Source: Saccharopolyspora sp. NFXS83 (GTDB lineage Bacteria; Actinomycetota; Actinomycetes; Mycobacteriales; Pseudonocardiaceae). Taken from it: 64,000 nucleotides of DNA. The notes below the pieces were generated by a model. That model was not told the origin of the DNA and ran no database searches. It saw only the letters and a list, made by a program, of their open reading frames with translations. The position numbers were made by a program, and so were the translations under genes. The stretch lies in contig NZ_JAPFGB010000006.1 of NCBI RefSeq assembly GCF_026241095.1, positions 186,001 through 250,000 of the forward strand, written 5' to 3'. Positions 37,537 through 64,000 of this stretch are shown here, piece after piece; the stretch's first letter is position 1, and every line of letters begins with the position of its first letter.

Positions 37537-37594
37537 ACCAGACTCCTCAATCACCGGGAACAGGGCCTCTCCTGCGATTTTCTGGTCTTCGTCC

Positions 37595-37767
37595 TGTCGG
37601 TGGCGAAGCCGCCGAGCAGCGACCACCTGAGCAGAACGACCACCGGCGGGTTCTCAGCGGCTTCCTCGCGAGGACAGCAATTTCTCTCGTGGCGGAGCCA
37701 CTTGAGAAATTGATCCCGCAGCGAGGAAGCCGCTGAGGTTCCGCTGCTCGCCCCGCTACGCAGACCG
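37595..37767. repeat. Nested-hairpin intergenic repeat, copy A
   Basis: This element of about 170 bp lies between the ADH and hsd4A genes. It contains a small hairpin (37597-37604 with 37608-37615). A larger nested one follows: outer arms 37654-37669 and 37721-37736, TCAGCGGCTTCCTCGC perfectly paired over 16 bp. The inner arms are CAATTTCTC 37678-37686 with GAGAAATTG 37704-37712, and the tip is GTGGC-GGA-GCCAC. The element ends with CCCGCTACGC near 37752-37761. Related copies lie at 41.9, 55.0 and 62.4 kb. No coding content is convincing. Confidence 0.85.
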
Positions 37768-37782
37768 CGCCGAGAAGGAGAT

Positions 37783-38871
37783 CTAGTCGAAAGTGACGAT
37801 TTGGCGGACCAGGGCAGCATCCCCGCCTTGCAGCGCCGCCAAGCCGTCGTTGATGTCGGAGAGCGCGAGGCGTCTGCTGATCATGCCTTCGAGGTCGAGG
37901 CGCCCGGCACGCCAGAACCGCAGCATCCGGTCGATGTCCCGGCGCGGGTCGGCCGAGCCGTAGAACGACGGCAGGATCTTGCGTTCGTTGATGAACAGCT
38001 CCTGCGCCGTGAATTCGACCTTCTGGTCTTCGCCGCCCGCGCCGACGATGACGACGGTGCCACCGCGCCGGGTGGCGTCGTAGGCGGAGCGGATGGTGCC
38101 CGCCAGCCCGACGACTTCGATGGCGTAGTCGAATCCGGCGCCACCGGTGAGTTCCTGCTTGAGCTCCTCGAACCCGTCGGGGGTCGTGGCGTGCGTCGCG
38201 CCGAAGCGCTTCGCCGCGTCGTGCTTCTGCGTCGCGGGGTCGACCGCCACGATCTCGGTCGCGCCGGCCAGCCGGGCGCCCTGGATCACCGAGATCCCGA
38301 CGCCGCCGCAACCGATGACGGCCACGGTGGACCCGGGTTCGACCTGGGCCGTGTTCAGCACCGCGCCGACGCCGGTGAGCACTCCGCAGCCCAGCAGCGC
38401 GCCCACCTCGAACGGCACGTCCGGGTCGATCTTGATCGCTCCGTCGCGCGGCAGCACCAGTTCTTCGGCGAACGTGCCGCAGCCCGCGAAGCCGAAGGTG
38501 GGTTCCGCGCCCACTTCGAACCGCGGGGAGGTGAACGCGGCGATGGTGTGCACCGCGCACAGGTGGGCCTGCCCGTGCAGGCATTCCCGGCATTTCCCGC
38601 AGGGCGGCACGAAGGTGATGGTGACGTGATCACCGGGTGCGAGGTCGGTGACCTGCTCCCCCACCGCCAGGACTTCGCCTGCGCCTTCGTGACCCATCAC
38701 TCCGGGGGCCAGCGCGGGCAGGGTTCCGTTCATGGCGGACACATCGCTGTGGCAGATCCCCGCCGCGCGAATCCGGACGTGCACTTCGTCCGGGCCCGGC
38801 GCCACCACCGCGGCGTCCGTCCGGACGTCGAGCTCGTCATCGCCGATCTGCTTGAGCACCGCTGCCTTCAC
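37783..38871 (-). CDS. Zn-dependent alcohol dehydrogenase (MDR family)
   Basis: This 362-residue class III-like MDR enzyme has catalytic zinc ligands at about Cys40 (AGICHSD), His61 (GHEGAGEV) and a Cys in LLGCGVLTG. The structural-zinc Cys set lies at about 91, 94, 97 and 105 (CGKCRECLHGQAHLC). The NAD motif is IGCGGVGISVIQGARLAGA, followed by an acidic residue in IVAVD, which favours NAD. A KstR-type box with one mismatch lies 64 bp upstream. The setting suggests oxidation of a sterol side-chain alcohol (for example 26-hydroxy) ahead of the aldehyde dehydrogenase two genes downstream. This is inference. Confidence 0.85.
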   Translation of the reverse strand: MKAAVLKQIGDDELDVRTDAAVVAPGPDEVHVRIRAAGICHSDVSAMNGTLPALAPGVMGHEGAGEVLAVGEQVTDLAPGDHVTITFVPPCGKCRECLHGQAHLCAVHTIAAFTSPRFEVGAEPTFGFAGCGTFAEELVLPRDGAIKIDPDVPFEVGALLGCGVLTGVGAVLNTAQVEPGSTVAVIGCGGVGISVIQGARLAGATEIVAVDPATQKHDAAKRFGATHATTPDGFEELKQELTGGAGFDYAIEVVGLAGTIRSAYDATRRGGTVVIVGAGGEDQKVEFTAQELFINERKILPSFYGSADPRRDIDRMLRFWRAGRLDLEGMISRRLALSDINDGLAALQGGDAALVRQIVTFD

Positions 38872-40732: not shown

Positions 40733-41860
40733 ATGGATTTCGCACCGACCGAGGGACAGCACGACCTGGCGGAGCTGACCCGCGACATCGTGACCGACCA
40801 CGTCACCGCCGACCGGTTGCGCGACGTGGAATCCGGCCCGGACCGGTTCGACCGCGCGCTGTGGACGGAACTCGGCAAGGCCGGGGTGCTCGACGCCGCG
40901 TTGCCGGAAGCGCTCGGCGGCGGTGGCTGCGGGCTGCCGGAGCAGTGCGCCGTGCTGGTCGAACTCGGCAGGGCGGTCACGCCGGTGCCGTACCTGCCGT
41001 CGTTGGTGACGGGGGCCTCCGCGGTGGTCCGGTTCGGGGACGCGCGCCAGCACGAGCGGTGGGCGCGCCCGGCAGGGGACGGCGAGATCGTGCTGACCGC
41101 GGCGTTCGCCGAAGGCGCCGATCCCGCACCCGCCGCTCCGTCCACCACCGCCGAACGGGATGGCGCGAAGTGGCGCGTCAACGGGGTGAAGGTGGCCGTC
41201 CCCGCCGGTGCGGTGGCGGACTTCTTCCTGGTACCGGCGTCGACTCCGCACGGACGGCGGGTGTTCGTCGTGGCGGCCGACGACGGCGGCGTGGCGGTGC
41301 GGCGCCAGCAAATCGTCGACGGCGACAGCGAAGCGTGGCTGGAGCTGAGCGGGGTCGGCTTGGACGACGACCGGCTGCTCGGCGGGGACGAGGCCGCCGA
41401 CGTCGCGGATTGGCTCGAAGCCCGCGGCACGCTGGGGTTGTGCGCGGAGCAGCTCGGGGTGCTGGAGCGGGCGTTGGAGCTGACCGCCGAGTACGCGGGC
41501 GAACGCACCCAGTTCGACCGCCCGATCGGCACCTTCCAGGCCGTGTCGCAGCGGCTCGCGGACGCCTACATCGACGTCGAAGCGGTCCGGCTGACGATGT
41601 GGCAGGCCGCCTGGCGCGCGGCGGAGGGCCTGCGCTGCGACGCCGAGGTGGCGACCGCGAAGTTCTGGGCGGCCGAAGCCGGGCACCGCGTCGCCCACAC
41701 CGCGGTCCACGTGCACGGCGGCGTGGGAATCGACCTCGAACACCACCTGCACCGCTACTTCGTCGCGGCCAAGCGCCGCGAGTTCGCCCTCGGCGGCGCC
41801 ACTGCTCAACTGCACCGCATCGGCACGGCACTGGCCGACGACGGCACCCTCCTGGACTGA
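40733..41860 (+). CDS. fadE27: Acyl-CoA dehydrogenase FadE27 (ChsE5)
   Basis: This 375-residue protein (M. tuberculosis: 373) is the partner of FadE26 in the alpha2beta2 dehydrogenase. The N-terminal helices are clear (ALPEALGGGGCGLPEQCAVLVELG). The central domain lacks SEPxAGSD. The C-terminal half provides the FAD-contact motif GERTQFDRPIGTFQAVSQRLADAY and HVHGGVGIDLEHHLHRYF. No catalytic Glu is apparent, as expected for this subunit. Repeat copy B follows in the 238-bp gap before fadD17. Confidence 0.9.
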   Translation: MDFAPTEGQHDLAELTRDIVTDHVTADRLRDVESGPDRFDRALWTELGKAGVLDAALPEALGGGGCGLPEQCAVLVELGRAVTPVPYLPSLVTGASAVVRFGDARQHERWARPAGDGEIVLTAAFAEGADPAPAAPSTTAERDGAKWRVNGVKVAVPAGAVADFFLVPASTPHGRRVFVVAADDGGVAVRRQQIVDGDSEAWLELSGVGLDDDRLLGGDEAADVADWLEARGTLGLCAEQLGVLERALELTAEYAGERTQFDRPIGTFQAVSQRLADAYIDVEAVRLTMWQAAWRAAEGLRCDAEVATAKFWAAEAGHRVAHTAVHVHGGVGIDLEHHLHRYFVAAKRREFALGGATAQLHRIGTALADDGTLLD

Positions 41861-41904
41861 CGCCGCCCATCGAGCGTCCTGCCCCACCCGGCTCGTGATC
41901 TTCG

Positions 41905-42062
41905 TCTGGTCAGCGGCGGAGCCGCTGAGCAGCGCCCCCCGGAGCAACCGGCACCGCCGCGGGATCTCAGCGGTTCCCTCGCGGGTACGGCGATTTCTCC
42001 CGTGGCGGAGCCACTCGAGAAATCGATCCCGCAGCGAGGGGGCCGCTTGGGATCCCGCCACC
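41905..42062. repeat. Nested-hairpin intergenic repeat, copy B
   Basis: This copy fills most of the gap between fadE27 and fadD17. The first hairpin is TCAGCGGC-GGA-GCCGCTGA (41910-41928). The outer arms 41967-41982 and 42034-42049 pair with G-T wobbles replacing pairs of copy A. The inner arms are CGATTTCTC 41991-41999 and GAGAAATCG 42017-42025, perfectly paired, and the tip GTGGC-GGA-GCCAC is identical. Differences from copy A preserve the inner stem (A-T to G-C at the same position). Confidence 0.82.
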
Positions 42063-42098
42063 CGATCACCCACGCAGCAGCGACCCGGGAGGCCAGCC

Positions 42099-43721
42099 AT
42101 GCTCGAGCCGACGCCCACCGTCACCGATCTCCTGCTCGCCCGCGCCGACGACGAACGTCCGGGCTTGCGCTTCGAACACCGGGAGTGGACCTGGGCGGAG
42201 CACGTCCAGCGCTGCGCCGACCACGCCGCCGTCCTGCGTTCCCTGCGCGGCGAAGGCGGCCCGTGGCACGTCGGTGTGCTGCTGGACAACGTTCCCGACT
42301 TCTCGTTCCTGCTGGGTGCGGCGGCGCTGTCCGGGGCGGTGCTGGTGGGGCTCAACACCGGGCGGCGCGGCGAGGCGTTGGCCCGCGACGTCCGGATCGC
42401 GGACTGCCGCCTGGTGCTCACCGAACGGCGCTACGCAGGCCTGCTCGCGGAGGCCGACCTCGGCGCGGCGAACGGGAACGTGCACCTGATCGACACCCCG
42501 AAGTGGTCGCGGCTGCTGTCGGCGCACCGGGACGCCCCGCTCCGGCCGGTCGCGGCCGGTCCCGACGACCTGCTGGCGCTGCTGTTCACCTCGGGCACCG
42601 GTGGCGACCCGAAAGCCGTCCGCTGCACGCACGGCAAGGTCGCCTTCCCCGGCCGGATGCTGGCCGACCGGTTCGAGCTCGGCGGGAGCGACGGCGTCTA
42701 CGTGTCGATGCCGCTGTTCCACTCGAACGCGCTGTTCGCGGGCTGGGCGGTGGGTCTGGCGGCGGGTGCGGCGGTGGCGTTGCGGCGGCGCTTCTCCGCC
42801 TCCGGCTTCCTCGACGACGCGCGCCGCTTCGGCGCGACGTACGCGAACTACGTCGGCAAGCCGCTCTCCTTCATCCTCGCCACCCCGCCCCGGCCGGACG
42901 ACGCGGACAACCCGCTGAAGGTCGTGTACGGCAACGAGGGCGCCGAGCGCGACCTCGCGCGGTTCGCGGAGCGGTTCGGCTGCCAGGTGGTGGACGGCTT
43001 CGGGTCCACCGAGGGCGGTGTGACCGTCGCGCGCAGCCCGGAAGCGCCGCCGGGTTCGCTGGGCAGGCCCGGTCCGGGTGTCCACGTGCTGCACCCGGTG
43101 ACGGGGCGCCGCTGCCCGCCCGCGTCCTTCGACCGGGACGGGCGGGTCACGAACCCGGACGAGGCGATCGGCGAACTCGTCAACACCACCGGCGCGGGAG
43201 CGTTCGCCGGGTACTACCAGGCGCCTGAGGCCGACAAGTGGCGGATGCGCGGCGGGATGTACTGGAGCGGTGACCTCGCTTACCTGGACGGTGACGGTTT
43301 CTGCTACTTCGTGGGCCGCTCCGACGACTGGCTGCGGGTGGACGGGGAGAACCTGGGGACCGCGCCGATCGAGCGGATCCTGTTGCGGCACCCCGGAATC
43401 GCGCAGGCCGCCGTGTACGCCGTGCCGGATCCCGGCATCGGCGATCAGGTGATGGCCGCGATCGTGCCCGCCGGCGACGACCCGCTCGACCTCGGTGGCT
43501 TCCTCGCCGCGCAAGCGGACCTGGGCCCCAAGCAGCTGCCCCGGTTCGTCCGGTTCGCCGCCGACCTGCCGCGCACCGAGACGCACAAGGTCCTCAAGCG
43601 CGAACTGGCCGCACAGCGCTGGAACTGCCCCGACGCGGTCTGGTGGCGCCCCGGCCCCGACCCGGTCTTCGAACCGCTGCCCCCGGAACGAGCCGTCGAG
43701 CTCGACACCGCGTTGAGCTGA
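42099..43721 (+). CDS. fadD17: Acyl-CoA synthetase FadD17
   Basis: This ANL-superfamily ligase of 540 residues is somewhat longer than M. tuberculosis FadD17 (502). The AMP-binding P-loop is LLFTSGTGGDPKAVRCTHG near residue 163. Later motifs are YGNEGAERDL, VDGFGSTEGG, YWSGDLAYLDGDGFCYFVGR (A7-A8 hinge region) and TETHKVLKREL, with the catalytic Lys of the swinging domain. The start ATG 42099 follows GGGAGG. Its place after fadE26-fadE27 is the mycobacterial order. It activates a side-chain carboxylate, probably a longer or C24-branched sterol acid; exact specificity is uncertain. Confidence 0.88.
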   Translation: MLEPTPTVTDLLLARADDERPGLRFEHREWTWAEHVQRCADHAAVLRSLRGEGGPWHVGVLLDNVPDFSFLLGAAALSGAVLVGLNTGRRGEALARDVRIADCRLVLTERRYAGLLAEADLGAANGNVHLIDTPKWSRLLSAHRDAPLRPVAAGPDDLLALLFTSGTGGDPKAVRCTHGKVAFPGRMLADRFELGGSDGVYVSMPLFHSNALFAGWAVGLAAGAAVALRRRFSASGFLDDARRFGATYANYVGKPLSFILATPPRPDDADNPLKVVYGNEGAERDLARFAERFGCQVVDGFGSTEGGVTVARSPEAPPGSLGRPGPGVHVLHPVTGRRCPPASFDRDGRVTNPDEAIGELVNTTGAGAFAGYYQAPEADKWRMRGGMYWSGDLAYLDGDGFCYFVGRSDDWLRVDGENLGTAPIERILLRHPGIAQAAVYAVPDPGIGDQVMAAIVPAGDDPLDLGGFLAAQADLGPKQLPRFVRFAADLPRTETHKVLKRELAAQRWNCPDAVWWRPGPDPVFEPLPPERAVELDTALS

Positions 43722-54493: not shown

Positions 54494-54550
54494 GCCGCGA
54501 CCACGCCAGATGGGGCCGCGGCGCCGCGGCCACGGAACCGAGAGGTGCCC

Positions 54551-54991
54551 ATGCACGCCGACGTCGTCTGGAAAGCCATCAACGCCGAGCACCCGGCCCG
54601 CCGGGCGGCTCGCGCCTCGATGGACGCCGTGGTGCGCGGGGCCAAGCAGGAGTGGCTCGCGCTGTTCGCCCCGGACGCCGTGATCCAGGACCCGGTGGGC
54701 GAATCGCCGCTGGACCCCACCGGGCTCGGGCACCACGGCCGGGAGGGGATCGAGGCCTTCTGGGATGCGGTGATCTCCACCGCTGAGCGCCTGGTGTTCC
54801 ACGTCCTCGACTCGTTCGCCGCCGGGGACGAGGTGGCCAACACCGGCTTCATCCGCACCCACCTGCCCGACGGCTCCGTCATGGACGCCGAAGGCGTGTT
54901 CGTCTACCGGGTGGACGAACACGGCAGGCTCGTGTCCATGCGCGCCTTCTGGGAGTTCGACCGCGCCATGGCGACGCTGCACACGCCCTGA
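54551..54991 (+). CDS. Ketosteroid-isomerase-like NTF2 protein (Rv0760c-like)
   Basis: This 146-residue NTF2/SnoaL-fold protein resembles M. tuberculosis Rv0760c, a ketosteroid-isomerase-like protein. It has WLALFAPDAVIQDPVGESPLDPTGLGHHGREGIEAFW at about 36-72 and RLVFHVLDSFAAGDEVANTGFIRTH. MDAEGVFVYRVDEHGRLVSMRAFWEFDR closes the fold. The Asp in VIQDP fits the position of a KSI catalytic acid. Delta5-to-delta4 isomerisation or steroid binding is plausible. It ends the right-reading DUF35-ltp operon; the start is ATG 54551, although GTG 54545 is in frame. Confidence 0.8.
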   Translation: MHADVVWKAINAEHPARRAARASMDAVVRGAKQEWLALFAPDAVIQDPVGESPLDPTGLGHHGREGIEAFWDAVISTAERLVFHVLDSFAAGDEVANTGFIRTHLPDGSVMDAEGVFVYRVDEHGRLVSMRAFWEFDRAMATLHTP

Positions 54992-55021
54992 AACCTTTCC
55001 GCTCCTGGTGCGCAGGCGTCC

Positions 55022-55177
55022 AGGTAGCGGAACCTCAGTTTCTTCCTCGCTGCGGGATCTTCTTCCCAAGTGGCTCCGCCACGAGGGAAAAAGCCGTCCT
55101 CGCGAGGAAGCAACTGAGAACCCGCCGGTGGTCGGCTTGTTTTGGTGGTCACTGCTCAGCGGCTTCGCCGCTGACAA
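55022..55177. repeat. Nested-hairpin intergenic repeat, copy C (inverted)
   Basis: This copy lies in the opposite orientation to copies A, B and D, between the KSI-like gene and the convergent HxlR gene. Outer arms TCAGTTTCTTCCTCGC 55035-55050 and GCGAGGAAGCAACTGA 55102-55117 pair at 15 of 16 positions. The CG of other copies is replaced by TT on one arm and AA on the other. Inner arms 55059-55067 and 55085-55093 pair at 8 of 9. The tip is GTGGC-TCC-GCCAC (55070-55082), and the end hairpin TCAGCGGC-TTC-GCCGCTGA is at 55156-55174. Confidence 0.82.
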
Positions 55178-55266
55178 GACGTGGACGGCAGATGCAGCCC
55201 GCGTATTCGAAGGCAGGCGGCGAGGTGGCCTCGCTCGACCCGCGGTCAAGCCGCTCCGAACGCTCC

Positions 55267-62313: not shown

Positions 62314-62341
62314 GCCCGAGCCCTCCCACAACGATCTTCCG

Positions 62342-62521
62342 ATCTTGTCAGCGGCGAAGCCGCTGAGCAGCGACCAGCTGGAGCAAAGCGACCACCGGCG
62401 GGTTCTCAGCGGCTTCCTCGCGAGGACAGCCATTTCGCTGCGCATCGGACATGCATGAGAAATGGCTCCCGCAGCGAGGAAGCCGCTGAGGTTCCGCTGA
62501 GCGACCCGCTACGCAAGCCGT
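62342..62521. repeat. Nested-hairpin intergenic repeat, copy D
   Basis: This copy lies between hsaC and hsaB. The first hairpin is TCAGCGGC-GAA-GCCGCTGA (62348-62366). The outer arms 62406-62421 and 62474-62489 are a perfect 16-bp match. The inner arms GCCATTTC 62429-62436 and GAAATGGC 62459-62466 pair perfectly, but the tip differs from all other copies: a 22-nt segment with its own GCAT/ATGC pairing replaces the GTGGC hairpin. It ends with CCCGCTACGC near 62506-62515, as in copy A. Confidence 0.84.
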
Positions 62522-62535
62522 TCTGCAAAGTCACT

Positions 62536-64000
<1,465 letters not shown>

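Follow-up and report, generated by a model that had tools for sequence, protein, structure and literature searches.

Bacterial MITEs, i.e., non-autonomous transposons, are usually regarded as passengers with drifting interiors, and the transposases of the IS5 family are DDE enzymes which use double-stranded DNA as substrate. Among the further short repeats, bcr1 of the Bacillus cereus group is presented as a repeat with a conserved structure (PMC2267715), RU elements are presented as small mobile MITE-like sequences (PMC2759123), and some REP/BIME elements are reported to supply stop codons (PMC3733652). Template switching is put forward as a neutral source of paired changes (PMC8794818), and for S. 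erythraea a set of 190 putative ncRNAs was reported (PMC3610266). In the literature searched, no published description was found of the element family dealt with here, four copies of which (A to D) lie within the window, a stretch of 64,000 nucleotides from Saccharopolyspora sp. NFXS83. The data point to these copies being one mobile element with a conserved, probably strand-specific fold, meaning that two options listed side by side in the preliminary description, a structured RNA and a non-autonomous hairpin mobile element, would apply at once.

All four copies were recovered at the positions and with the arms given in the preliminary description, copies A, B and D on the plus strand and copy C on the minus strand. 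The element limits given there span mainly the core, whereas the inserted segments of copies A and C, as delimited by comparison with G002 sites without an element, extend further. For copy A the breakpoints define an inserted segment of about 218 bp on the plus strand (about 37,559-37,776), which contains the small hairpin TCGGTGGC-GAA-GCCGCCGA (37,597-37,615) and the long hairpin (37,646-37,744), the latter being built of outer arms (37,646-37,669 and 37,721-37,744) that enclose the internal-loop halves GAGGACAGC and GATCCCGCA as well as an inner stem and a tip. The end repeats of copy A are decayed and the insertion sequence ends described below do not match it; the TAG stop codon of the minus-strand gene at 37,783-38,871 follows 6 bases beyond its right end. 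The core of copy B (41,893-42,077, plus strand; profile match 134 bits) is located between an acyl-CoA dehydrogenase gene ending at 41,860 and the gene of an AMP-binding enzyme starting at 42,099, its small hairpin TCAGCGGC-GGA-GCCGCTGA covering 41,910-41,928 and its long hairpin 41,959-42,057. Copy C, a segment of about 229 bp on the minus strand (about 54,992-55,220, with the left side aligning weakly to the G002 site), begins directly 3' of the TGA stop codon (54,989-54,991) of a SnoaL-like gene (54,545-54,991) and carries its long hairpin at 55,027-55,125 and the small hairpin TCAGCGGC-GAA-GCCGCTGA at 55,156-55,174. Copy D was delimited by its core (62,341-62,518, plus strand; profile match 185 bits), beyond which the outer ends lie; this core ends 17 bp short of the stop of the minus-strand gene at 62,536-63,438 and comprises a small hairpin TCAGCGGC-GAA-GCCGCTGA (62,348-62,366) and a long hairpin (62,398-62,497). 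The long hairpins of the four copies thus measure 99-100 nt each. No gene was placed over the elements by our own gene finder, and no match to an insertion sequence end was recognisable at any of the four window copies.

Beyond the window the family is abundant. A search of the own genome with copy A returned at least 51 matched stretches, with 40 of the 449 first-look candidates having been scored (E = 3e-106 for the self match, 7e-60 for the next best). Scanning with the core profile (E <= 1e-3) identified 16 elements within 250 kb of the own contig; the counts for G001 (280 kb), G002 (260 kb) and G003 (60 kb) were 24, 14 and 4, respectively. A 32-base hairpin pattern (up to 3 mismatches) matched 343 times in G001 and 258 times in G002, both of which are complete sister genomes, while the reversed-pattern control gave 0 matches; by extrapolation, the own genome holds about 440 copies. 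Ten places with an exact match to a 28-base piece of the element were found in Saccharopolyspora sp. HNM0986. The checks proposed in the preliminary description gave the predicted outcome, with many further intergenic copies and with covariation exceeding both shuffles and a tree null (see below). A covariance model of the element matched 54 of 200 genomes of the same family, in 13 of 46 genera, and among 296 genomes of the class the own genome was the sole match; for both searches stricter filters were applied than for the smaller scans. Three weak order-level matches (G044, G056, G057) lack the core. We regard the elements as a repeat family belonging to the bacterial family of the window. 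The earlier statement that no named RNA family fits was borne out, as no Rfam family reached its gathering score across the window and a lenient search at copy A yielded a far weaker, chance-like best match of 23.9 bits as compared to a cut-off of 137. An Rfam structured-RNA family was rejected on these grounds, and an origin from phage or plasmid was likewise rejected, copy A being without such a match at E 1e-5.

The ends of the elements bear on the question of how they move. In relatives, orthologous sites without the element occur, i.e., the insertions are polymorphic, and where both flanks align the insert measures about 200-255 bp (221 bp in the cleanest case), which is too short for a transposase gene of its own. 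Two end types were identified, GAGCCTGTCTTTGATCTTG (type I) and GGAGTCCTTTCAGAATGAT (type II), whereby a consensus of ends was used in place of an automatic alignment of left with right ends, which for 87 copies scored barely higher (20.5) than shuffled sequences (17.6). Type II ends were found in G002 on four identical insertion sequences of 908 bp (L181-L184) as well; these have ends reading GGGGTCCTT(T/G)CAGAATG, are each preceded and followed by TTA or TAA and encode an IS5-family transposase (NF033580, 231 bits against a cut-off of 110). The first 20 bases of the own-genome copy L049 are identical to this end (20/20) and the G002 copy L159 matches it in 23 of 24 bases. Only these last 20-24 bases are common to the insertion sequence and the elements, any similarity of the interiors consisting of short chance matches, for which reason an origin of the elements as internal deletion derivatives of the G002 insertion sequence was rejected. 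An insertion sequence bearing type I ends was not found, and the own genome revealed no end pair at the distance of an insertion sequence. One of the four 908-bp copies in G002 is itself inserted immediately at the right end of an element.

Both ends were recognised in 23 of 120 near-full copies, the other 97 having no recognised end pair. TNA adjoins the outer edge at 23 of the 46 ends (12/23 left, 11/23 right; background 2.2%, P = 3e-26); at other offsets the count is 0-3 per side. In five of the 23 copies the same 3-mer stands left and right (0-2 at other offsets), the flanking 3-mers of the remaining 18 being unequal; many of the end loci in these counts had been selected through their end pattern, a choice that biases towards intact ends but not towards TNA. 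Three short derivatives without the long hairpin (L180, L186 (G005) and L163 (G001); 100, 87 and 102 bp) possess both ends along with 3-bp duplications, namely TAA, TTA and TTC, the last being the one exception to TNA. In the own genome, the same long hairpin also occurs in a subfamily (L316-L319 on contigs C70, C44, C36 and C30), in which several small GAA-loop hairpins make up the left side and the right ends differ. Considering the end repeats shared with an insertion sequence, TNA at the ends, the sites without an element and the location at gene ends (see below), the elements are predicted to be MITEs about 200-255 bp in length, in line with the mobile-element option of the preliminary description. 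As judged from sequence, there is good support for their putative movement through an IS5-type transposase, and likewise for the mobility and the target of the family.

A high copy number, intergenic hairpins and ends at stop codons, the last reported for GTAG REPs (PMC3733652), would also be expected if the elements were palindromes of the REP/BIME type that depend on a RAYT (Y1) transposase for their movement. Among eight genomes, however, Y1_Tnp was matched in G004, G005 and G017 only and was unmatched in G000-G003 and G018, all of which carry the family, and a length of about 220 bp, inverted repeats at the ends and TNA at the edges do not fit this type. Since the family abounds in genomes without a Y1 match, a RAYT-driven origin was rejected and is considered scarcely credible. 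The Y1 transposase genes that were found are L321-L324 (in G005, G017 and G004); G017 also carries the element family.

Many of the elements are located at gene ends. None of 52 elements (profile score at least 40; 52 of 58 matches) was located inside a gene by our own gene finder, 22 being found in convergent, 26 in tandem and 4 in divergent gaps, with the reservation that these entries are non-independent, as the G000 and G001 stretches share insertions. Filtering by score and flank left 144 copies, of which 86 have a facing stop codon no more than 150 bp from the right end and 76 one equally near the left end, 25 having none on either side; on the right side its median distance from the core edge is 16 bp, with a cluster at 10-25 bp. 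All three stop codons fit TNA, and the copies are presumably located at gene 3' ends because the TNA target includes stop codons. In genus g15 (L258, L266) an element resides between recA and recX, as identified by Pfam matches in L258.

The interior of the elements follows a common plan, in which a small hairpin and a spacer precede the long hairpin with its 24-nt outer arms, and in which the interior of the long hairpin contains the two loop halves, the inner stem and the tip. Within the outer arms, three successive positions read G.T, T.T and T.G in 102, 98 and 102 of 123 motif-matched hairpins. When folded as RNA, copies A to D reached z = -7.1, -6.0, -6.2 and -7.6, none of 200 dinucleotide shuffles each being equal; the opposite strand folds nearly equally well (-72.8 vs -74.2 kcal/mol). 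The preliminary description had proposed a conserved fold on the basis of paired stem changes, a proposal that holds up, such changes being well above both shuffles and a tree null. Within the 123 motif-matched hairpins, which include a few chance matches, 143 two-sided changed cells are paired (re-dealing the arms gives 30 on average and 49 at most), next to 262 cells changed on one side and 45 changed on both sides but unpaired. In 31 sequences hand-chosen among motif-matched copies of seven genera, 97.6% of cells are paired and 118 two-sided cells were counted vs 35 after shuffling (0 of 500 shuffles as high), a signal which is abolished by sliding the partners; the four pairs of the outermost helix are invariant in this set and hence uninformative. 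When changes were placed on a tree, 35 same-branch co-changes were identified, 32 of which end paired (null mean 3.0, maximum 9), and with a tree derived from unpaired columns 62, of which 59 end paired (null 11.7, maximum 28); at pair 50-79 neither tree shows a co-change, and at pair 51-78 the first shows none. The loop halves stay near-invariant while the stems differ in six of the seven other genera examined, the internal loop not being kept in G030 (two copies).

Paired changes of this kind would also arise if no selection acted on the fold and the arms were kept complementary by template switching within the hairpin together with conversion among copies, template switching being a published mechanism (PMC8794818). 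Part of the data speaks in favour of such processes. At eight G000/G001 sites, at which both copies score at least 70, comparison of the copies plus 60 bp of flank within the shared frame gave 74-89% identity, that of the flanking blocks 86-96%, and at four of the eight sites the copies are oppositely oriented, one of them being a head-to-head chimera; this lower identity of the copies and their opposite orientations imply that conversion, inversion or reinsertion occurs. Between copy A and its G001 orthologue, paired stem changes coincide with spacer changes in a manner suggestive of block replacement. A head-to-head arrangement of two long hairpins was observed at L121:9015-9167 (about 2745 kb in G001), where a chimera is joined at the palindrome GTCCTCGCGAGGAC. 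Conversion or replacement thus appears to contribute, some paired differences moving in blocks, and the paired differences cannot all be put down to compensatory mutation. As an explanation of the whole, template switching and conversion are nevertheless rather improbable, since they leave unexplained the near-invariance of the unpaired loop halves in other genera, the excess of G.T over A.C in well-paired copies (see below) and, as regards conversion, the paired changes at the gatB locus. At that locus behind gatB, a copy in orthologous position is found in each of five genomes of genus g56, three of which hold no other copy detected at E 1e-5, so that conversion lacks a detected second copy there. 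Nine of ten comparisons at the locus gave 2-6 two-sided vs 0-2 one-sided changes, the tenth, which involves a poorly paired copy, being reversed (0 vs 3).

Mismatches within the stems bear on the question of which strand folds. In 139 well-paired copies, the reader's strand has 38 G.T and 7 A.C mismatches, and in 27 well-paired copies of other genera 18 and 1; G.T cells are partly common by descent, and counted by distinct position and type the numbers are 13 vs 6. The full set of 194 copies, to which a context filter was applied, gives 105 vs 50, and the 148 own-genus copies together give 51 vs 41, a small excess as would be expected if decayed copies were neutral. Covariation, conserved loops and G.T over A.C taken together suggest that selection probably acts on the fold which the module adopts in the reader's strand. 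As the fold is kept despite many changed stem letters, it is suggested that the folded strand itself has a job.

This strand could be single-stranded DNA, e.g., during replication or transposition, rather than RNA. GNA loops are very stable in DNA hairpins, and the small loop is of this type in 131 of 148 own-genus copies (other loops in 7, hairpin unrecognised in 10) and in 20 of 46 copies of other genera (8 and 18, respectively). A preference of orientation linked to replication is known for IS903, an IS5-family element. The orientation of the present elements tracks GC skew, 54 of 73 elements in five G001 stretches being located on the strand opposite the G-rich one (33 of 48 where the skew is positive, 21 of 25 where it is negative), as are 19 of 26 in G001 convergent gaps; in the G002 stretch 10 of 12 follow the same rule. 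This skew-linked orientation lies outside the prediction of an RNA role. Orientations were counted in individual genome stretches, the 32-base pattern serving for totals only, and since no dnaA was found by a crude pattern in the examined chromosome ends, replication direction rests on GC skew. Against a single-stranded DNA role stand the double-stranded substrates of IS5-family transposases, the correlation of gene strand with skew, the G001 stretch at 300-500 kb, one of the five, with reversed orientation (5 vs 7), and the G003 stretch of near-zero skew (0.005), which has three elements on the plus and one on the minus strand. A fold kept as single-stranded DNA is accordingly judged unlikely, albeit less so than one maintained by template switching and conversion.

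The RNA reading, in which the module is a putative structured RNA at gene 3' ends, remains our best guess, and the model which we consider probable on the whole is that of an IS5-type MITE family with stop-codon targets and a structured interior acting as putative RNA 3'-end structure. It assumes that an IS5-family transposase acts in trans on the terminal repeats of the elements, the enzyme moving the window's own copies presumably being of this kind, and that insertion takes place at TNA with a 3-bp duplication. Stop codons would serve as TNA targets, leading to a pile-up at gene 3' ends, while insertions within genes are presumably removed by selection. The mobilised unit would consist of at least two end types around one interior module, i.e., a small hairpin whose loop is in most cases GNA and a long one whose internal loop is near-invariant. 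The folding strand would be RNA, formed via read-through or convergent transcription, and this RNA may act as a 3'-end structure by defining the transcript end, by affecting stability or by providing a protein site at the internal loop. Of the 26 tandem elements, 18 are antisense and 8 sense to their neighbours, so that read-through would mostly yield the other strand, which counts against the RNA reading. A variant held to be possible, though clearly less probable than the above model, sees the core as an independently selected, strand-specific RNA (or single-stranded DNA) module, which is carried by transposons with different ends, became fixed behind gatB in one genus and has a dedicated protein partner reading the internal loop.

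In a wider context, the interior of the family keeps its fold across the seven genera of the counted alignment despite changed stem letters, whereby the family constitutes a natural experiment on structural selection vs template switching. As a genome of this genus has some hundreds of copies, many of which adjoin stop codons, numerous transcript 3' ends could be shaped by the family. Of the described systems, structured RNAs of Rfam likewise possess covarying helices around conserved loops but include no matching family. REP/BIME elements are comparable as abundant intergenic palindromes, whereas the present elements are longer, have inverted-repeat ends and TNA edges, and occur where no Y1 transposase was found (five of eight genomes). 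The repeats bcr1 and RU/ERIC are alike in size (about 100-170 bp) but belong to other clades and are set apart here by description. MITEs mobilised by IS5-type enzymes share with the present elements their shortness, IS5-type terminal inverted repeats, TNA ends and many intergenic copies. Unlike these, the elements have an interior that is not derived from an insertion sequence, carry more than one end type and hold a conserved fold with near-invariant loop halves; the family is put forward as a new MITE family of putative IS5 type with an unusual structured interior that appears to be under selection.
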